From Natrinema hispanicum (lineage in GTDB: Archaea; Halobacteriota; Halobacteria; Halobacteriales; Natrialbaceae), in assembly GCF_900111485.1 (NCBI RefSeq), contig NZ_FOIC01000007.1, positions 62,001-126,000 of the forward strand: a stretch of DNA of 64,000 nt, written 5' to 3'. Shown piece after piece: positions 45,671-56,238 of the stretch. The notes beneath the pieces were generated by a model that made no database searches, was not told where the DNA came from, and was given only the letters and a program-made list of their open reading frames with translations. A program made the translations under genes and the position numbers. Within the stretch, counting starts at the first letter, position 1; every line of letters starts with the position of its first letter.

Positions 45671-46891
45671 TTAGCAGAAGTTCTGCGTCGCGTACACTTT
45701 GCCGTCGTCGGTCATGTAGATGCCAATGCCTTCGTTCTCCCACTGCGATGCGAGAATGTTCTCTCTGTGGCCCGGCGAGTTCATCCACTGGGTGACGATC
45801 GCGTTCGCGAGTTCGGTTTCGGTGGTGTACGTGTCGGTACCGCCGTCGGTCCGAACGGCCGTGTCGTACCACGTCTGTGCGATGTTCTCGCCACCGGTGT
45901 AGTACGTGTTGCCGCTGCCGTCGACACGACACGTGTATCCCGCGTCGGAGTAGCGGTCGGCGAAGGTGTCTCCGTCAGGGCTCGTGTGGGAGAAGTAGTC
46001 CCGCTCGGCCATGTCACGGCTGTGCTCTCGTGCGATATCACGGAGTTCCGTATCGAACGCCAGTTCGTTCAGGCCACGCGCGGTTCGTTCGTCGTTGACG
46101 GCCTCGTGGATCCCACGCTCGACGGCGGCGCGATCGAAGCCGTCAGTCTCCTCGTCAGCCGAGGAGTCGGTCTGGTCGCCGTCTTGGCTATCCGTCGTGG
46201 TGTCAGTGTCCGTTTCTTCGTCAGTCGAGGAGTCAGTCTGGTCGCCGTCTTGGCCGTCGGTTGTGGTGTCAGTTTCTTCGTCAGTCGAAGAGTCAGTCTG
46301 GTCGCCGTCTTGGCTATCCGTCGTGGTGTCAGTGTCCGTTTCTTCGTCAGTCGAGGAGTCAGTCGTGTCGTCGGTCGACTCTTCGTCCGTCTCGTCAGCA
46401 TCGGAGTTGGAGTCAGTGTCTGCCGAGTCGTCGGTTTCGTCGGTCTCGGTCTCGTCACTGTCGGACGAATCGTCGGTCGTGTCACTCGGCTCCTCGGTCT
46501 TGTCGGTTTCGTCGGTCTCGGTCTCGTCAGTATCGTCGTCCGAGTCGGGAGCATCCGGTCCCGTTTCCGACGGCTCATCGCTATCGACAGCACTCGAGTC
46601 GTGGTCAATACAGTCGGCGAGGTTGTCTGGTACTGTGTATCCGTACGTGGTGAAAATACTGGCTAAGCGTGTTTCAAGCGGGGAACAGGAGTTGGCCTGT
46701 TCCTGCTGGAATTGCGAAGTTACTGTCTCGCTGTTCGTTGTCGTGGCATGGTTCGTGTTCGTAACGACGTTGTCAGTCGTGGCAGTCGCCGTGGCGGCTG
46801 GCGCAGCCGCTGCAACGCCAGGCCCGACCATACTCACCATGAGAACCGCAACCATCGTGAGGGATATCCCTAGTCTCGATATTCGACTCAT
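45671..46891 (-). CDS. Secreted CAP/SCP-domain protein with acidic repeat stalk
   Basis: A 406-residue exported protein. The N-terminal hydrophobic signal is ISLTMVAVLMVSMVGPGVAAAA. A globular region with two cysteines (NSCSPLETRLASIFTTYGY ... LADCIDHD) follows. Then about 150 residues are an acidic Asp/Thr/Ser/Glu stalk containing nearly identical 20-22-residue units. The CAP domain is C-terminal: IHEAVNDERTARGLNELAF, AREHSRDMAERDYFSHTSPDG, YTGGENIAQTWYD, TQWMNSPGHRENIL, ending VYATQNFC. It shares its C-terminus with the CAP protein at 41.4 kb. The long stalk suggests projection beyond the S-layer. Confidence 0.85.
   Translation of the reverse strand: MSRISRLGISLTMVAVLMVSMVGPGVAAAAPAATATATTDNVVTNTNHATTTNSETVTSQFQQEQANSCSPLETRLASIFTTYGYTVPDNLADCIDHDSSAVDSDEPSETGPDAPDSDDDTDETETDETDKTEEPSDTTDDSSDSDETETDETDDSADTDSNSDADETDEESTDDTTDSSTDEETDTDTTTDSQDGDQTDSSTDEETDTTTDGQDGDQTDSSTDEETDTDTTTDSQDGDQTDSSADEETDGFDRAAVERGIHEAVNDERTARGLNELAFDTELRDIAREHSRDMAERDYFSHTSPDGDTFADRYSDAGYTCRVDGSGNTYYTGGENIAQTWYDTAVRTDGGTDTYTTETELANAIVTQWMNSPGHRENILASQWENEGIGIYMTDDGKVYATQNFC
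46146..46360 (-). repeat. Coding tandem repeat in the CAP-protein stalk
   Basis: Three and a partial fourth unit of 66, 60 and 66 bp encode near-identical peptides of the type TDSSTDEETD followed by TTTDSQDGDQ. The middle unit lacks two codons. The near-identity at DNA level points to recent slippage or unequal recombination; the length may vary between strains. Confidence 0.8.
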
Positions 46892-47082
46892 CAACACGTA
46901 TATACAGAAAATCATCGACCATGAACTGTCACCTGTATCCGTTCAGTCTTTATCTATGAACTCAAAGTTCGGTATACAACGACCGCTACTGCGGTCTCTT
47001 CCGGTTTCGAACGGCGATAGTCAACGAGTGGAGTGGTGCTCCATGCCATCCTCGAGGTCGGTGATATGAATTTGAGCGCATA
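46892..47082. other. Intergenic region before the CAP gene
   Basis: No gene is supported. It contains one small perfect hairpin, GACCGC-tact-GCGGTC at 46981-46996, and AT-rich sequence with TATA-like stretches near the CAP gene start (for example ACGTATATACAG). The next feature is the IS200/IS605 relic. Confidence 0.4.
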
Positions 47083-48329: not shown

Positions 48330-50177
48330 TTAGTTTTCTTCGCGTGCCGCGAGCAGGCCAGCAGCGAGCAACGCGACAAGGGCGACGGCGACGCCGAACC
48401 CAGGGATCGAATCATCCGTCTCGTCGGACGGAGCTGCGCGTGGCTCATCCGAGGACACGTCGTCGGCCGTCTCATCACCAGCGTCAGTGTCGGGCCGCGT
48501 TGTCTCGTCGTCAGTCACGGTGTCGTTCATCTCGTGACCAGTCGGATCGGACTTCTTGGCTGCTTTCTTCTTGGTCGATCCGGTGGCGGGATCGCTTTCG
48601 GACCCGTTTTCGGCAGTTTCACTGCCGGTCCCGTCGCCGCGCTCTGTAGTGTCACCACTCGTATCGACGGTCGCCTCAACGTCAGCGAAGCGTACGTTTC
48701 TGTTCCGCTGAATCGTTATCTGCGATGCGTTCGCACTCGCGTTGCGTTCGGCGACGGCGACCGCGGCCTGTTGTCGGTTCCTGTTTTCTTGGGTGACGAA
48801 CTGGATCTGTTCAAACTGGGCACTCGAGGACTGTTCGTCGACGGTCTGCTGGTCGTTCTCGCCGTTCTCGCCGTCGTGTCCGATCGTGATCGGTGCCGTT
48901 CCGCGAATGGCGTCCCCGCCGATCGTGAGCGTCGTTTCGTTGCTAATCACGGTTCCGGCGTTGGCGGTAACGTTTTCATAGATGGACGCTGCAGTCGCCA
49001 CACCGATCTGCTCGTTGTAATTGCGCTGTTCGGCCAGTTGGATCGCGGTTGCATTGCTGCCATCGAGCGCAACCGCGACTGCTGCACTCTGTAAGTTGAT
49101 GTTTACCTGTTCTGTATGTTGGTACTGCGTCATGCTGACGTCGGCTGTCTTGTCACCGTTGGTCGCCTCACCACCCGTCGTCAGCACGCTACTGTTGGCT
49201 TCGTCCGCCGTAGCGACGTTCATCCCTGCCATCGACTCGAGGTGGGAGAGCGTTTCGACGGACGCGTACTGTTCGTTGAGATTCGTTTGATCGGTGATCT
49301 GGACGGCCGTCGCAACGGAGTTGCTGCCGACCGCAATCGCGACTGCCATCCCCTGTTGGTTCTGGTTGATCTGTGAGAGGGTCTGTGACTGATCGATGCT
49401 TGCCTGTGCAGATTGCTCGGCAGCGCCAGCAGTAGTGCCAGTCTCGCGGAGGGTCGTCGATCCTTGCTGTCGATTCTTGTTGGTTTGTGTAGAGCGTTGA
49501 TATGCCAGTGCAGTGCTCTCGTTCTCAGCGAGCGCGATAGCGATGCTCTGGTCGTTGAAATTGACCTGGCTGACGTTTTGCTGTTGGGTGGTCGATGTCT
49601 CAGTCGCCAGTCCGCTGTCCCGACCACTGCTGTCGGTCTCGTCACGAACGCTCCATCCGTCGAACCCCCGGTCGTCACTGTTACCGAAGACGATGTGTAC
49701 GTCGCCGACGTTCTCGAAGCTGAGGTCCTGAGACGGAGCCACAGTGCTCTCAGCGGTCGCTTCACCGACCTGGCTGTTGGTGTTCTGCTGTGTCTCCTCC
49801 TGAATGGCGGTCGCCTCCCCGCCGCCGATCGCAATAGAGATTGCCCCGCCTTGCTGATTGAAGTTCACCTTCTCGACGTCTTGGTACTGCACGACGTCGG
49901 CGATTTCCTCCCGGCCGGCCTCGACGCTTGGGTCGGTCGAGGTCGCCACCTGGGACTCGAGAAACTCATCAAGCGACCGATTCCCCAAGTCCGCACCGAA
50001 GACGAAGTAGAGTTCGTCGTCGTTCTCGAGTGTCTTTACGGCCTCGGCCGTCGAACTCGGTTCGGCTGACGTCTCGGTTGTCTCTGCGGCAACAGCGGTC
50101 CCGGCTCCAGCTCCGGCCGTCGAGAGGACGACCAGCGCAGCGACGAACAGTGCTGTCGGACTCGAGAGTCTCGTCAT
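48330..50177 (-). CDS. PGF-CTERM surface protein with five Asn/Gln/Ala-rich (curlin-like) repeats
   Basis: A 615-residue exported protein. A signal peptide (FVAALVVLSTAGAGAGTAVAAE) is followed by ENDDELYFVFGADLGN. Five repeats of about 42 residues start near 97, 198, 263, 351 and 456, each following the pattern QxQ-x3-QxNxNxQ-x3-A[IV]A[IV]A ... AxQ-x3-QxNxNxQ. A second VFG motif (VGDVHIVFGNSDDRG, ~157) precedes repeat 2. A Ser/Asp/Glu-rich stalk with KKKAAKK leads to IPGFGVAVALVALLAAGLLAAREEN-type PGF-CTERM, the archaeosortase target. The repeats recall curlin repeats in composition and spacing; homology is not shown. A degraded relative lies at 51.4 kb. Confidence 0.82.
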   Translation of the reverse strand: MTRLSSPTALFVAALVVLSTAGAGAGTAVAAETTETSAEPSSTAEAVKTLENDDELYFVFGADLGNRSLDEFLESQVATSTDPSVEAGREEIADVVQYQDVEKVNFNQQGGAISIAIGGGEATAIQEETQQNTNSQVGEATAESTVAPSQDLSFENVGDVHIVFGNSDDRGFDGWSVRDETDSSGRDSGLATETSTTQQQNVSQVNFNDQSIAIALAENESTALAYQRSTQTNKNRQQGSTTLRETGTTAGAAEQSAQASIDQSQTLSQINQNQQGMAVAIAVGSNSVATAVQITDQTNLNEQYASVETLSHLESMAGMNVATADEANSSVLTTGGEATNGDKTADVSMTQYQHTEQVNINLQSAAVAVALDGSNATAIQLAEQRNYNEQIGVATAASIYENVTANAGTVISNETTLTIGGDAIRGTAPITIGHDGENGENDQQTVDEQSSSAQFEQIQFVTQENRNRQQAAVAVAERNASANASQITIQRNRNVRFADVEATVDTSGDTTERGDGTGSETAENGSESDPATGSTKKKAAKKSDPTGHEMNDTVTDDETTRPDTDAGDETADDVSSDEPRAAPSDETDDSIPGFGVAVALVALLAAGLLAAREEN

Positions 50178-50805
50178 AAGCTCTTGTTGTCCTGTCCAGA
50201 CACCTGTGCTGAGAGTCTGTTCGTATTGACTGTCATCGGTATAAACTGCTAACAGCCGGACACAGTCTTTGTTATCTAGCAGTTATAAGAACGCAGCAGC
50301 CAACTACCAGCGGGACAAGAGTTTCACTGAATAAAACACACAAAGTCATCAAACAGCGTTCGGAGAAATGGCTGACTAGATCCCTGAAACCACAAGACAC
50401 GGGTGAGACAGAACAAGCGGAAGCGGGTGCCGATCACCACACTGTATACATCAATAACATTTCATATTGTGCATATTCATTATAAAGATGTGAATCGAAA
50501 ATAACGGATTGATTTGATCGTGAAAGCTGACTATCTTTCGGAGTTACGTCTCTGTATTTATTTGCTGATGATTTGATATCGAACTCGTACAGAGGATAGT
50601 CAGAGATGCAAGAATGCTGTTTTCTGGGCCTTAGATTGGCCAACTCGCCGTTTTAGGCGAAACTGTTCCTGGGGTTCATATTCATCTCCAAGGTGATTCT
50701 CACCTGGGCAACGTGCCATAGCGGTGAACAATCGAGTCCACTGATGAGGGGTTGGCGACGAGTCGAGTCAGATGATCCGACACGTATGCCCGACACGCAA
50801 AAACT
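50178..50805. promoter_or_regulatory. Divergent regulatory region between the repeat surface protein and the first small secreted protein
   Basis: No gene is supported. On the minus side a TCTTATAA box (about 50283-50290) could serve the surface gene. On the plus side two blocks are conserved with the region before the second small secreted gene: GGGGTTCATATTCATCTCC at 50671-50689 and GGGCAACGTGC[CT]ATAGCGG at 50706-50724. They lie about 82-135 bp before the ATG. The stretch 50440-50600 is very AT-rich. Confidence 0.6.
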
Positions 50806-51255
50806 ATGAAACGCGCACTCACGCTCGCACTGACGGTAGCATTGATCGGCAGCCTCACGTTCATGGGGTTCGCTGGAACAGCGGCCGCAGGCAACTTCCA
50901 GAACGACGCTGGTGTCGATACTGACAATAGCGTCGACCAAGATACGGATGCGGCGACTGATCAGGCCCAAGACACTGATCAGTCGTCCGAGCAAGACGGC
51001 GAGAACGAACAGGACCAGGAGGCTGAACAGGAGAACGAGCTTGACCAGGGTGACAACATCGCACTGTCTGGCGGCGGTGATGCGTATGCATTCAACAATG
51101 CTGACCAGACGAACAAGCTCTATCAGAAACAGAAGGCCAAGAACGACCAGTACAACACCCCAGACTCTAAGCAGAAGCAGAAAGGGAAGACTGGTGCAGG
51201 TAGCATCGCTGTCCCGATCACCAACCTGACCGACTTCGTCAACGCCGCGCTGTAA
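50806..51255 (+). CDS. Small secreted Asp/Gln/Asn-rich protein A, Lys-rich C-terminal half
   Basis: A 149-residue exported protein. The signal peptide is RALTLALTVALIGSLTFMG followed by TAAAG. The mature part begins with NFQNDAGVDTDNSVDQDT, continues as an acidic Gln-rich tract (TDQAQDTDQSSEQD), then DQGDNIALSGGGDAYAFN. Its last third is basic, KLYQKQKAKNDQY and SKQKQKGKTG, which is rare for a haloarchaeal exported protein. It ends SIAVPITNLTDFVNAAL. The paralogue 1385 bp downstream aligns without gaps but has Asp where this has Lys. No lipobox or membrane anchor. Function unknown; context suggests partnership with the divergent repeat surface protein. Confidence 0.82.
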   Translation: MKRALTLALTVALIGSLTFMGFAGTAAAGNFQNDAGVDTDNSVDQDTDAATDQAQDTDQSSEQDGENEQDQEAEQENELDQGDNIALSGGGDAYAFNNADQTNKLYQKQKAKNDQYNTPDSKQKQKGKTGAGSIAVPITNLTDFVNAAL

Positions 51256-51291
51256 CGCTGCGGTAAAACCATATCCGATTTTCGTTCCGCG

Positions 51292-51297
51292 TTTTTT
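51292..51297 (+). terminator. Oligo-T terminator after secreted protein A
   Basis: A GTTTTTT run about 36 bp after the stop codon, matching the archaeal U-rich termination signal. The corresponding site after the paralogue is at 52678-52684 in an aligned context. Confidence 0.55.
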
Positions 51298-51374
51298 CTG
51301 CACCTGTTCTTGAATTCAGAGCTGAGTCTCTCACGAGAACAGCTACTCACACTGACACACATCAAGCAGCTGAT

Positions 51375-51496
51375 TGGTGTGCCAGTGGCAAAGATAACCC
51401 AGAGATCGTCGCCGTTCTCGAGGTTGTGCTGTTTCATCCGTGATATTCGGTTCGGCTAGCGACCCAGCAACCTCTGCAGCAACAGCGATTCCGACT
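51375..51496 (-). pseudogene. Frameshifted N-terminal remnant of a second repeat surface protein
   Basis: Minus-strand translation gives VGIAVAAEVAGSLAEPNITDE in one frame and, after a frameshift, NLENGDDLWVIFATG in another. These match, in order, GTAVAAETTETSAEPSSTAE and TLENDDELYFVFGAD near the N-terminus of the surface protein at 48.3-50.2 kb. Its distance to the following plus-strand gene (about 610 bp from the expected start) equals that of the intact pair (629 bp). The signal peptide, the repeats and the C-terminus are lost or unrecognisable. This is the decayed partner in duplicated copy B. Confidence 0.6.
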
Positions 51497-51499
51497 CTG

Positions 51500-52190
51500 C
51501 TTTGGCGATAGACCGGATTGCTGTCTCGAGTTTCCGTCCACCCTAGCACGGTCGCAAGGTTTTGTCATTGAATCGATATTCTGATAATATGTAGTATTAT
51601 AGTGATTTTAGACTACTAATTCGAGTGCTTGCATTTACTATAATATGTTGAAAAAGACCATATGTCGCTAACATTGCGGGAGATACTGTATTATCGAGAA
51701 ACGCACTACTGAGAGAAGAATTGCAACCAGGCGTCGAACCATATTACGGGGAAACATTCGGCTGTACGATTGAAACTGCAAGACACGGACAGAATGAAAC
51801 AACTGTAAATAAGCACCGATCAGTCTATCGTATCCATTAGTGTCTCTTCAGATTTGCAGTATTCGGTGCTCGATTGTCCAGCAGAAATGAGTTAGAATTT
51901 TCATCTATTAGGACGGACTTTGTTCTGAACGTGTGTAAAAATATTCGTTTTTGTATTTATAGATGCTGAATCCAAGTAGACGATATTCAGAGATCCGAGA
52001 AAATCGTTTTGATGCCTTTTAATGGACTAATTCGGCGTTTTAGTCGAAACCGTTCCCGGGGTTCATATTCATCTCCGCGGTGGCTACCAGTTGGGCAACG
52101 TGCTATAGCGGAGCGAGATTGGTAGCGGCGAGAAGAGACTAGTGACGGGTCGAATCTGATTGACACGTGCGCCCGTACACGGCTATAACT
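51500..52190. promoter_or_regulatory. Upstream region of secreted protein B with conserved blocks
   Basis: No further gene is supported. The conserved blocks seen before protein A recur: GGGGTTCATATTCATCTCC at 52058-52076 (identical) and GGGCAACGTGCTATAGCGG at 52093-52111 (one change). They lie 80-133 bp before the ATG. The section 51560-51980 is unusually AT-rich for this genome and carries only the degenerate duplication. Confidence 0.6.
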
Positions 52191-52640
52191 ATGAAACGCG
52201 CACTCACACTCGCACTGACGGTAGCAGTGATCGGCGGCCTCACATTCGTGGGGGTCGCTGGAACAGCGGCCGCAGGCGACTTCCAGAACAACGCTGGCGT
52301 CGATACCGACGCTAGCGTCGACCAAGATACGGAGGCGACGACTGACCAGAACCAAGACATCGATCAGTCGAACGACCAAGACGCCGAGAACAACCAAGAC
52401 CAAGAGGCTGAGCAGTCGAACGAGGCTGACCAGGGTGACAACATCGCACTGTCTGGCGACGGTAACGCGGATGCATCCAACGACGCCGACCAGGATAACG
52501 ACCTCGACCAGGATCAAGACGCCACGAACAATCAGAACAACCAGCCAGATGCTGACCAGGATCAGGATGCTGATACTGATGCCAACAGTGTCGCCGTCCC
52601 AATCGTCAATCTAGAGGACTTCGTCAACGCTGCACTGTAA
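52191..52640 (+). CDS. Small secreted Asp/Gln/Asn-rich protein B
   Basis: A 149-residue exported protein, gap-free paralogue of protein A. The signal is RALTLALTVAVIGGLTFVG with TAAAG. The mature chain is dominated by Asp, Gln and Asn: VDQDTEATTDQNQDIDQSND, then NNQDQEAEQSNEADQGDNIALSG and DNDLDQDQDATNNQNNQ. The C-terminus SVAVPIVNLEDFVNAAL is conserved with A. There are no cysteines and no hydrophobic core, so it is likely extended or polymer-forming rather than globular. The frame begins earlier, but the ATG at 52191 corresponds to that of protein A. The Gln/Asp tract is very similar to the stalk of the PGF-CTERM protein that follows. Confidence 0.82.
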   Translation: MKRALTLALTVAVIGGLTFVGVAGTAAAGDFQNNAGVDTDASVDQDTEATTDQNQDIDQSNDQDAENNQDQEAEQSNEADQGDNIALSGDGNADASNDADQDNDLDQDQDATNNQNNQPDADQDQDADTDANSVAVPIVNLEDFVNAAL

Positions 52641-52677
52641 CACCGCGGTAAAATCCATCTCCGGTTTTCGGTCCACG

Positions 52678-52684
52678 TTTTTTT
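52678..52684 (+). terminator. Oligo-T terminator after secreted protein B
   Basis: A seven-T run 37 bp after the stop codon in a context aligned with the site after protein A (CGGTAAAA ... CCG then CGTTTTTT). Confidence 0.55.
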
Positions 52685-52877
52685 ATCGCAGTTGATCCCG
52701 GGCCCAAAACCAAGCGGATCACGGGAACCGTTATCGATGCCGAGGAATAGCAACGCGATCTCCTTTAGCGGTGCCTCAGCTGCTGTCGTTCAGTAAGTAC
52801 CAGACCGGCCACTGAAAAATAGCAGTGCCGGGAAAATGAAACCGGAGTGGCCGAAGTGATTCGGTAGTTACTGCAGT

Positions 52878-53933
52878 TTAGTTCTGCTGACGGAATGCCA
52901 GCATGGCTGCTCCGAGGAGCGCAACCAGGGCGACGCCGACGCCGAACCCGGGCATACTGTCACCGCTGTTCGACTGCGACGCGTCCTCATCCTGATCGTT
53001 GTTGGCGTCTTGGTCGTTCGACTGATCGACGTTTTGGTCCTGATTAGTTTCCGCAGACGTATCCTGGTCGGTGCTCGCGTCGTTCGAGACTCCCGAGTCG
53101 GTGCTGTCATGGCCGTTGGTGCTGTCGCCGCCAGCAGACTTGTCCTTCTCACCTTTCTCGGTGTAGTCGTTGTCACCTTTCTTCTTGTCGTGCTTGGTGT
53201 CGTCTCCCTTCTCGTCGTGTTTGTTCTTCATGTCGGGGTCCACGGTGGCCGAGTCGGACACGGGGACGAAGTTTCCGGCGTCTTCATCGTAGGCCTGGAG
53301 CGGTTCATCGTCGACGAAGATCGTCGCCGTGACCTCGGTCTGTGCTGTGATCTTCGACGTGTCGATCGTGATATCTTCGTTCGTCCCGGTTAGCTCGGTT
53401 GCACGACCGAGCTCGTTGCCGTCCGCATCAGTCAGGACGACGTCGAACTCGGTGTCATTATCGTCGCCATCCAGCAGGCTCGCTGTGTCGACAGTGACCT
53501 GCTCGAGCGTGCCCTTCGCGGATTTCTGATCGGACAGCTCGATGGTGGCGTCGTAGATCATCGCGTCATCGTCGTCTATTTCGTCGCCGCCCTCTTCGGA
53601 GTAGAGCGTCGCAGTGTACTCTCCCGGTCCGTCAGGGGTCGCGAAGATAGCAGCATCCGTGGCATTCACAGGAATTACTGTTTTATCCACGACCTCTCCG
53701 GACTCGTCTGTGACCTCGAGGTACTGTCCTTTCTGGGCGTAGATGGGCCCAACGACCATGGTGTCCGAGTCGTTATAGACACCGATGGCCTGATCGTTGA
53801 ACGTGACACTGTCTTCGGTTGCTGCCGCTGCCCCGCCTGCAAACGCTACGGACATCGCAATCACGGACAGGACCATGAGTCCCGCCAGCATCACTGCGCG
53901 TCCTTTTTCGAGAGTAGTCGGTTTCGTTGTCAT
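52878..53933 (-). CDS. PGF-CTERM surface glycoprotein with Lys-rich and Asp/Gln/Asn-rich stalk
   Basis: A 351-residue surface protein. The signal region LEKGRAVMLAGLMVLSVIAM followed by SVAFAGGAAA is that of haloarchaeal S-layer-type glycoproteins. About 200 residues of beta-rich domain follow (SVTFNDQAIGVYNDSDTMVV; DAAIFATPDGPGEYTATLYS). Then come a Lys-rich block (KNKHDEKGDDTKHDKKKGD) and an Asp/Gln/Asn block (DQDTSAETNQDQNVDQSNDQ) that closely resembles secreted protein B. The end, SMPGFGVGVALVALLGAAML, is a PGF-CTERM anchor for archaeosortase A. The gene is convergent with that of protein B. Confidence 0.87.
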   Translation of the reverse strand: MTTKPTTLEKGRAVMLAGLMVLSVIAMSVAFAGGAAAATEDSVTFNDQAIGVYNDSDTMVVGPIYAQKGQYLEVTDESGEVVDKTVIPVNATDAAIFATPDGPGEYTATLYSEEGGDEIDDDDAMIYDATIELSDQKSAKGTLEQVTVDTASLLDGDDNDTEFDVVLTDADGNELGRATELTGTNEDITIDTSKITAQTEVTATIFVDDEPLQAYDEDAGNFVPVSDSATVDPDMKNKHDEKGDDTKHDKKKGDNDYTEKGEKDKSAGGDSTNGHDSTDSGVSNDASTDQDTSAETNQDQNVDQSNDQDANNDQDEDASQSNSGDSMPGFGVGVALVALLGAAMLAFRQQN

Positions 53934-55347
53934 TTTTGTAGTGGTTTGTTTTCGAGTAGTCAGATGTCGAGTCGACTGTCAGCGTCGTGAGCTCGCGAGT
54001 CCAGCTCTGCCGGAAGCAGTCGCTGGCTCGTGAAGACGGCGGCCGTATCCGTACCTGCCCTCGCGAACGTCGCGAGGGCAGTACTTTCAGTTCGGTGCAA
54101 CCATCTGATTTCGTGTACCATCTGTTTCACTCACCCTTTCGGGGTGAAACAGCGTATTGGGAGTGGTAACTTTACTATACACAGCAATGAGTTCGGAATA
54201 GATAGGTTACCAAATCGAAGTAACTGCTTAACGTGACTCTCAAATGCAGTTATCTCTCGCCCCATTCTCGGCTTTTGCAAGGAGCAACCCAGGTATCGCG
54301 GCCACATCGACTCGTCGAAACACAGCGTCGCAGGATGAAAGGTGCCAGTCGCGATCGATCTCAACTCCGATAGTCGTGTGTGGTTAGCTACCGTCTCAAC
54401 TCACTGACCGATATGCGAGTGTCTTGAGATTGCACAACACGAGCACGAGCTTCGACACGACGACCTATGTCGTCGTACTTTGCACTCACGTCGGACACTT
54501 GCCTATCGCCATTGTTCGCGACGTGTGCGGTCACATCGTGTGCTCAGCACAGCCTTCCGAACATCCAGGCGGTCTGCACCCCGTTCCTGTTCGAACGGCT
54601 CTCCCTCGAGGAGCGATCGCGGTCACACAGTAGAGAGACCAAGTCCCTTGAGTACAGTTGGATCAGAACCACTGCGCTGAGAGACAGTCTAGTGGAATGT
54701 GCATCAACTCGAGAGTCGAGACGGTGCTGTGCCTCGAGTTGTCCCGTCGAAAGCCACCGACCGTCATGCATCCGGTCTGCTGTCCCGCTGTCCCGGGGCG
54801 ATCGAAGGACGGTCGCGGCCGGCCGGCACTGACTGACAGGCGTCCGTCTCAACCCCAATCACGCGACAGCCCTGCGATTGGTGTCGCCAGCAGTTTGGCT
54901 GTGCTCATAGTGAGACTGACGACTGCTGTCTCACTTGTATCGGTACGCCACGTCACTGCCTGTCCATCGACTCGCTACCAGTTTTGTGAATTATGCTATC
55001 CGTGATATGACTGCTGAAGATACTATGTACCCTATAATTTGGACTTCGATTTATATCAGCCTCCTAACGCTGTCATATGATTTTATATTTTAAATACAGC
55101 AAATAAATACATTCTTTGTTTTAATATCATGTACACCATTACGCAATTTAGATAGTAGCTATCAGTTTGAACGGTGTTCCGCCTTCATGTGGGCCGATAC
55201 GGTCGATTTCGACTGGGTGACGCATCGTGGGAAGGGGCAAGGAGTCACGGGTTGCAAGCGACACGACGATCCGTGACGATCCACGTCCTGATCGGACACT
55301 TGTTCGAGTACGTGTGCGATCACCCAGACAATCAATATCAACACACT
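53934..55347. other. Long non-coding stretch with strong hairpins
   Basis: I see no supported gene in 1.4 kb; open frames here are short, lack domain motifs and have Cys/Arg/Ser-rich translations. Notable are a near-perfect 34-base inverted repeat at 54051-54084 (arms TGCCCTCGCGA and TCGCGAGGGCA with extra GTAC ends) and an imperfect one at 54123-54151 (TGTTTCAC ... GTGAAACA). The section 55000-55150 is very AT-rich. This may be decayed mobile or surface-gene sequence. Confidence 0.5.
54051..54084. repeat. Strong inverted repeat (11-bp perfect arms)
   Basis: GTAC-c-TGCCCTCGCGA-acg-TCGCGAGGGCA-GTAC. The inner 11-bp arms are perfect with a 3-base loop. It lies 120-150 bp upstream of the PGF-CTERM protein start on the opposite strand. 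It could be a transcription terminator, a regulator site or an insertion-element end. Confidence 0.65.
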
Positions 55348-56238
55348 ATGAAACGGACATTCACTGTACTGCTGGCGGTCGCTCTCGTCGGTAGCATGCT
55401 GTTCGCAGGTGTCGCCGGAACGGCGACTGCCGAGGAACACGATAGCGAGGCAGCTGCTATCGACACCATCACGTTTTATAACGACGATGGTGGCGAGCTA
55501 GAGCAGCTCGCACAGGCGACGTGGAACGACGATCACGACGAGTTCACGGTCGAAAAGATGGACGAGAACGACGAGATCTCGCTGAACGTCAAAGACTACA
55601 ACGACGACGGCCCGGTCGAAGTGGAGTGGACCTACGAAGGATACGCCGGCGCTGACGCTCCCGATATCGTCCGCGTCACTGCCGACGGTGAGACGCGTGA
55701 CCACGAGGTCGATACGACCAGATATCCGTTCACCGGCACGGTCGACTCCTACGATATGTCGGCAGACGATAACGACGACAGCAACGGTGACGGTGACACT
55801 GTCGGCGATGATGATGGCGACAGCGCCGATGACGGAACCGAGGAAGCCGACAGCGAGGCGGCCGCTATCGATACGATCACGTTTTACAACGACGATGGCG
55901 GCGAACTCGAGCAGTTAGCGCAGGCAACGTGGACCGGCGACCAGTTCGCGGTCGAAAAGGTAGACAAGAATGACGAGATCTCGCTGAACGTCAAAGACTA
56001 CAACGAGAACGGCCCGGTCGAAGTGGAGTGGACCTACGAAGGATACGCCGGCGCTGACGCCCCCGATACCGTCCGCATCACTGCCGACGGTGAGACGCAT
56101 GACTACGAGGTCGATACGACCAGCTATCCGTTCACCGGCACTGTCTCCTCCGAGGACATCTCTGAGGACAACGGCGACAACAACGACGGTGACGACGACT
56201 TCGATTTCGGAGATCTGATTCCGATCCTCTCTAGCTGA
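55348..56238 (+). CDS. Secreted protein with two nearly identical ~100-residue domains
   Basis: A 296-residue exported protein. Its signal (RTFTVLLAVALVGSMLFAG, then GTATAEE) resembles those of secreted proteins A and B. Two domains, about residues 33-135 and 168-268, are almost identical: each begins DSEAAAIDTITFYNDDGGEL and contains DEISLNVKDYN, GPVEVEWTYEGYAGADAPD and YPFTGTV. A very acidic linker (DDNDDSNGDGDTVGDDDGD) joins them, and an acidic tail ends DLIPILSS. No anchor is visible, so it is probably released or bound non-covalently. The start was set at the ATG before the signal. The domain is not one I recognise. Confidence 0.8.
   Translation: MKRTFTVLLAVALVGSMLFAGVAGTATAEEHDSEAAAIDTITFYNDDGGELEQLAQATWNDDHDEFTVEKMDENDEISLNVKDYNDDGPVEVEWTYEGYAGADAPDIVRVTADGETRDHEVDTTRYPFTGTVDSYDMSADDNDDSNGDGDTVGDDDGDSADDGTEEADSEAAAIDTITFYNDDGGELEQLAQATWTGDQFAVEKVDKNDEISLNVKDYNENGPVEVEWTYEGYAGADAPDTVRITADGETHDYEVDTTSYPFTGTVSSEDISEDNGDNNDGDDDFDFGDLIPILSS

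Follow-up and report, generated by a model that had tools for sequence, protein, structure and literature searches.

Tandem duplication of a small secreted-protein gene leads to a candidate two-part surface repeat system in haloarchaea

A duplicated small gene and its divergent partner

The window analyzed here, a 64,000-nucleotide stretch of the haloarchaeal contig NZ_FOIC01000007.1 (family Natrialbaceae), contains a divergently transcribed gene pair encoding a large secreted repeat protein (615 amino acids; minus strand, 48330-50177) and a small secreted Q/N/D-rich protein (small A, smA; 149 amino acids; plus strand, 50806-51255). A second small gene follows (small B, smB; plus strand, 52191-52640; 149 amino acids from the ATG at 52191, in an open reading frame that opens at GTG 52167), and its product is 72% identical to small A. 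We are highly confident that a single tandem duplication, about 1.39 kb long, produced this arrangement in the common ancestor that the window's species shares with Natrinema limicola, N. hispanicum and Haloterrigena sp. H1, and that the duplicated segment took in the small gene together with its promoter region and its terminator, with its left end lying in the divergent large gene. The duplication is an ordinary tandem event; following it exposed a protein pair that is conserved in most Natrialbaceae and is undescribed in the sources searched. Our best reading is an undescribed secreted beta-repeat system that would work much as curli CsgA/CsgB does, possibly by forming fibers, without being a member of the curli family. 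As a whole, the duplication history together with a two-part surface-assembly function is the best explanation available, and one toward which we lean modestly.

The duplication captured only the start of the large gene

The first-pass annotation of this locus had described a divergent pair separated by 629 bp, with small B lying 1385 bp further on. The gap measures 628 bp (50178-50805), with the same length in all four species of our comparison set (G000, the window; G016, N. limicola; G019, N. hispanicum; G024, Haloterrigena sp. H1), and the start of small B indeed falls exactly 1385 bp past that of small A. As had also been noted, the upstream blocks and terminators align together with the coding sequences: direct repeats span all three at offsets of 1385-1392 bp, among them D1 (50797-51096 vs 52182-52481, 87% identical), D2 (50591-50724 vs 51978-52111, 76%), and D7 (50048-50107 vs 51438-51497) and D14 at offsets of 1390-1392 bp. 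BLASTN joined 710 bp at 77% identity (E 2e-156), terminators included. This defines a unit A at 49956-51349 (about 1.39 kb, running from large-gene codon ~74 to the small A terminator inclusive; limits accurate to 15 bp either way) and a unit B at 51355-52734 (about 1.38 kb).

Unit B opens with a frame-broken piece of the large gene on the minus strand, at the distance and orientation that the annotation had predicted for a frameshifted remnant. BLASTN aligned 50009-50107 with 51401-51497 at 72% over 99 bp (E 3e-8), so the similarity proposed for 51375-51496 is significant; the remnant, or stub, extends wider (about 51355-51545) and covers codons 1 to ~74 only. It has no recognizable start codon, and GTAVAAETTETSAEPSSTAE matches one reading frame while LENDDELYFVFGA matches another, so that homology to the 615-residue gene is combined with disabling lesions, as expected of a pseudogene. 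A 2-nt deletion is common to G000, G016 and G024 and a 1-nt deletion to all four species, indicating that the stub was already dead before those species split, and within the unit it has changed most rapidly (identity of 82-87%, with indels, vs 94-97% for the intact 5' end of the large gene).

To locate where homology ends, we searched the smA-smB spacer with a DNA profile built from the large gene and intergenic region of the four species. The match ran unbroken from large-gene codon ~74 up to the small gene (E 2.5e-64 in G016, 8.7e-63 in G024 and 6.3e-58 in G000); G019 carries a deletion in this spacer. In three species the stub stops at codon ~74 and adjoins sequence from downstream of smA, and copy B contains nothing from codons 75-615, with no large-gene 3' sequence between smA and the stub. 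In N. limicola, the least eroded copy, 43 bp past the smA terminator match the stretch past smB, with a score reached by none of 2000 shuffles, and this match ends about 9 bp short of the stub; in the window itself the outer match past the terminators is no longer significant (p 0.14). Together, the codon-74 break and the 43-bp match form the junction expected of a single tandem duplication of about 1.39 kb whose left end lay inside the large gene. The stub is therefore a by-product of the duplication, a 74-codon piece that was never able to encode the protein and then decayed, and not the remains of a whole partner. Its capture looks accidental, and it illustrates how the 5' end of a divergent partner, picked up by chance, can mimic a decayed gene.

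The earlier proposal, that the complete pair was duplicated and the second large gene later reduced by deletion to a 5' remnant, does account for a frame-broken large-gene fragment at a fitting distance and strand. We nevertheless consider it very unlikely, as the fragment breaks off at the same codon in three species directly against the smA downstream sequence, two events are required instead of one, and other lineages have duplicated the small gene without the large gene. Tandem small-gene repeats are also present in G005, G012, G023, G030, G032, G044, G047, G057, G068 and G089, with repeat units of 0.3-1.7 kb that lack the 5' end of the large gene. Thus the tandem duplication stands, while duplication of the pair as a unit followed by decay of the large partner does not; and because the small gene duplicates repeatedly on its own, duplication and retention are in themselves no evidence that the two products are partners.

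A single small gene occupies the same place in Natronorubrum sulfidifaciens and N. thiooxidans, outgroups that have the next-closest large proteins (58-61%), and the stub is present in all four species of the set. The A and B genes cluster with their respective orthologues across species (smB 91% with G016 and 82% with G024, vs 72% between A and B), which together with the single-copy outgroups places the duplication on the branch to the window's clade. The same grouping rules out conversion of the whole gene between smA and smB; the 5' part of the small gene is suspiciously alike between copies, with a synonymous divergence (dS) of 0.08-0.17 vs 0.50-0.67 in the 3' part. Purifying selection acts on the large gene (omega about 0.2) and on small A (0.24-0.57), and most species have an intact small B on which purifying selection also acts. 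The suggestion that small B had been freed from its original partner was not borne out, given that it still lies 2 kb from an intact large gene and nothing points to a separate role.

Large and small proteins occur together and share a repeat

We then assessed partnership from gene order, co-occurrence and sequence. Across the Natrialbaceae the recurring order is 255-residue protein, large gene (divergent), small gene or genes, larC and cdc48, with larC assigned by TIGR00299 and PF01969 and the cdc48-type ATPases by sequence. The large family is found in most of the Natrialbaceae examined and, elsewhere in the order, in some members of two further families, and in named genomes a divergent small gene stands at 37 of 45 large loci, so the divergent pair is kept in other haloarchaea. 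Among 87 genomes of the family that are at least 90% complete, 68 have both genes, none has the small gene only, five have the large gene only and 14 have neither (Fisher p 2e-12, a value that ignores shared ancestry); in at least two of the large-only genomes (G006 and G015) a small-like secreted gene that the profile missed sits at the expected place. Frequent occurrence of small genes without the surface gene, which had been named beforehand as a sign against the pairing, was not seen at the genome level (0 of 68), though the two genes are not always linked.

The large and small proteins both have secretion-type N-termini, as read from sequence, and profile comparison indicates that the small proteins contain a single copy of the repeat that is present five times in the large protein. 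Aligned by hhalign, the small-protein profile matched the first repeat of the large protein with a probability of 91% and an E value of 1e-6; with signal peptides removed the score was 38, compared to maxima of 14 over 60 column shuffles and 20 over 60 four-block shuffles, and to 16 for the reversed profile. Run directly against genomes, the small-protein profile also retrieved large genes in about twenty of them. Collectively, the conserved divergent order, the co-occurrence and the shared repeat indicate that the large and small proteins are in all likelihood two parts of one system, and this part of the first-pass annotation holds on grounds other than the duplication that it had cited.

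Alternatively, the locus might be a neutral hotspot in which signal-peptide genes are duplicated in tandem, their pairing with the large gene being incidental synteny. Several more genes with MKR-type signals lie in the block (for example that of a 297-residue protein, 55345-56238) and tandem copies are frequent, but neither the lack of small-only genomes (0 of 68) nor the shared repeat is expected from such a hotspot, which we regard as quite improbable.

The repeat is predicted to form Q/N-faced beta strands

From N- to C-terminus, the large protein consists of a signal peptide, an N-terminal domain, five QxNxNxQ hairpin repeats (residues about 91-145, 190-247, 255-313, 343-400 and 449-505), an acidic linker and a PGF-CTERM anchor (model TIGR04126, 43.6 bits against a cutoff of 24.5). 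The five repeat segments read QxQxVxQxNxNxQ..AxAxA-turn-AxAxQxxxQxNxNxQ, with Q and N positions that vary little or not at all across 34 homologues. The strict motif QxNxNxQ is found 318 times in the 34 large proteins (1.2 expected) and 21 times in 38 small ones (0.5 expected), and the small B segment DQGDNIALSGDGNADASNDADQDNDLDQ has the same strand-turn-strand layout as the large repeats. Q/N and A both repeat with a lag of 2 but not of 1, as is characteristic of a beta strand that presents a Q/N face. In the AlphaFold2 models the large protein has five pairs of long strands and the small protein one, with a predicted local distance difference test score (pLDDT) of about 70-80 in these strands and low values elsewhere; a beta-solenoid or hairpin stack is a plausible fold on these models. 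No Pfam or NCBIfam model covers the large-family repeats. Staphylococcal Sdr/Clf, lipase or PARP models in these databases matched the small proteins by composition, far below cutoffs. Foldseek matches of the small model to pore-forming toxins and to phage or flagellar parts reflect a generic long hairpin in a low-confidence model, none with an E value below 0.02, and were discarded.

The same features bear on a different account, in which these secreted proteins, acidic and rich in Q/N/D, are disordered or have only weak structure; they would hydrate or space the S-layer in high salt, and their common repeat would reflect descent and not polymerization. Strong acidity, low complexity and low model confidence fit this account, as does the rapid change of the small proteins in length and C-terminus. 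The strict alternation of Q/N with small residues, the invariant Q/N positions across the 34 large proteins and the strands predicted in every repeat argue against it, and we judge it unlikely, though a serious alternative. It is also conceivable that the large protein is a beta-solenoid adhesin, with the small proteins acting as soluble competitors of its repeats, or as caps or decoys for them, and perhaps diversified through halocin-like or phage-receptor-like interactions between strains. Small paralogues do expand repeatedly and diverge fast at one locus, and VIA-align on the low-confidence model found beta-helix-like stacking (SufB beta-helix, Z 9.5; CsgA, Z 7.2, with a root-mean-square deviation of 8.6). 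The block contains no immunity gene, protease or transporter, its neighbors being larC and cdc48, and an adhesin with decoys appears improbable.

A curli-like assembly is the favored but tentative interpretation

Under the reading that we favor, the large and small proteins would both belong to one secreted assembly at the cell surface. In the small protein, one repeat would fold as a beta-hairpin or beta-arch whose alternate residues make up a Q/N face; the large protein would have five such repeats in series and be tethered in the window's species by its PGF-CTERM (archaeosortase) anchor. Held at the surface, the large protein may offer the edges of its repeats as a template or cap, on which exported small subunits could stack edge to edge through Q/N ladders into an amyloid-like fiber or matrix, and extra small copies may tune subunit dose or type. 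Amyloid-like stacking of this kind, with the large protein as anchor or nucleator, is a tentative proposal that falls somewhat short of even odds. More doubtful still is the stronger version, an independently evolved haloarchaeal counterpart of curli in which a multi-repeat protein nucleates or caps fibers of single-repeat subunits and the subunit gene undergoes lineage-specific expansion at a larC/cdc48-linked locus.

Curli CsgA/CsgB (PF07012; PMC3521004) resembles the pair in several respects: two secreted proteins have one short Q/N-rich strand-turn-strand repeat in common, a short subunit stands beside one partner, the copy number of subunit genes varies and stacked beta strands are tentatively predicted. 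In curli both subunits are homologous through the same repeat, and the hhalign result gives the same relationship here. The minimal curli repeat is X6QXGX2NX10 (PMC3521004), whereas the repeat here reads QxNxNxQ..AxAxA..AxAxQ and not regular QxGxxN; the latter motif occurs 32 times in the 34 large proteins (12 expected) and twice in the 38 small ones, and forms no regular curli repeat. The pair further differs in that the partner is the larger protein and in that these archaea are single-membraned, without an outer membrane. PF07012 scored over its cutoff in 0 of 61 genomes and nowhere at the locus, in a search whose control exceeded the cutoff in one genome out of 14 known ones. PMC3521004 mentions an archaeal protein, unnamed there, whose repeats resemble those of curli.

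Several observations weigh against a curli-like assembly. Neither the window proteins nor the 34 large homologues matched the Pfam curlin model PF07012, and no PDB chain, amyloid or other, was matched in sequence by the large or small profile. Foldseek returned nothing significant, its top match being CsgA (8c50, E 0.32), and mean model confidence is low (pLDDT 48 and 61). Q/N-rich sequence may mislead profile comparisons despite the shuffle controls. The PGF-CTERM anchor is present in only 5 of 34 large homologues and missing from the other 29, indicating that membrane anchoring is a local feature and not general to the system. The two genes are unlinked in G027 (loci L095/L094), G030 (L080), G032 (L070) and G057 (L068), and in at least G027 and G057 the small genes are still at the larC/cdc48 locus with the large gene elsewhere in the genome. 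Finally, small B is under weaker selection (omega 0.51-0.66), and in N. hispanicum it carries a frameshift that is due either to mutation or to a sequencing error.

Secreted amyloid-like structural proteins have precedent in archaea. The Methanospirillum hungatei sheath protein SH is one (PMC10593813), and the Methanosaeta sheath protein, cited in that paper, is another. The proteins of our putatively amyloid-like pair are secreted structural candidates of the same general kind, but the methanogen sheaths are built from a single protein, and we detected no sequence relationship, the profiles matching no PDB chain. In Haloferax volcanii biofilms, dye evidence points to amyloid in the matrix, with HVO_1403 named only as a potential determinant (PMC4180959); no subunit gene was identified there. 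The pair is not described in the open-access papers on curli or amyloid in haloarchaea that we searched. If fibers do form, the pair would offer a genetic handle on haloarchaeal matrices, in which dyes suggest amyloid and no subunit gene is established, and would represent a further archaeal route to functional amyloid.

A conserved intergenic region with an upstream block

The 628-bp divergent region is 93-99% identical among the four species, except for its smA-proximal part in G016 (87%). The G000 and G024 sequences agree at 97-99% here, compared to 88% in the large gene, which suggests constraint or a recombination tract. The corresponding copy B region (51546-52190) holds an upstream block (about 52030-52190) that is conserved in the four species. 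The block reads CGAAAC-GTTCC-GGGGTTCATATT (short form CGAAAC-GTTCC-GGGG) and lies about 145-157 nt upstream of the small start codons (window 50640-50700 and 52030-52170). The four species and G078 share it, and G002 has a similar stretch; it is not family-wide. An Rfam scan of 47.8-54.2 kb gave no match, so the block is not explained by a known RNA.

Neighboring secreted proteins

Convergent to small B is a gene for a 351-residue PGF-CTERM surface protein (minus strand, 52878-53933; TIGR04126, 43.4 bits), which like the window's large protein, and unlike most large orthologues, scores as a putative archaeosortase A substrate. In its C-terminal part, a Q/D/N stretch is 46-53% identical to small-protein residues 23-80 (53% over 58 residues to small B), and an inverted DNA repeat of 140 nt at 73% identity joins the small B gene (52291-52430) to the 351-residue gene (52959-53098). 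We consider this protein a probable third surface member of the cluster whose Q/D/N stretch probably derives from local copying of small-gene DNA. At the N. hispanicum locus (L064), small B and the 351-residue gene each carry one frameshift, through mutation or assembly error. The 297-residue protein mentioned above is secreted, with an MKR-type signal peptide as in the small proteins, and is also present in G016 and G024; its gene contains an internal tandem duplication of about 370 bp (offset 408 bp, 85%). On the other side of the locus, beyond the 255-residue gene, 45671-46915 encodes a secreted protein that has a CAP domain (YkwD-like) and a long linker of Asp/Thr/Ser repeats.

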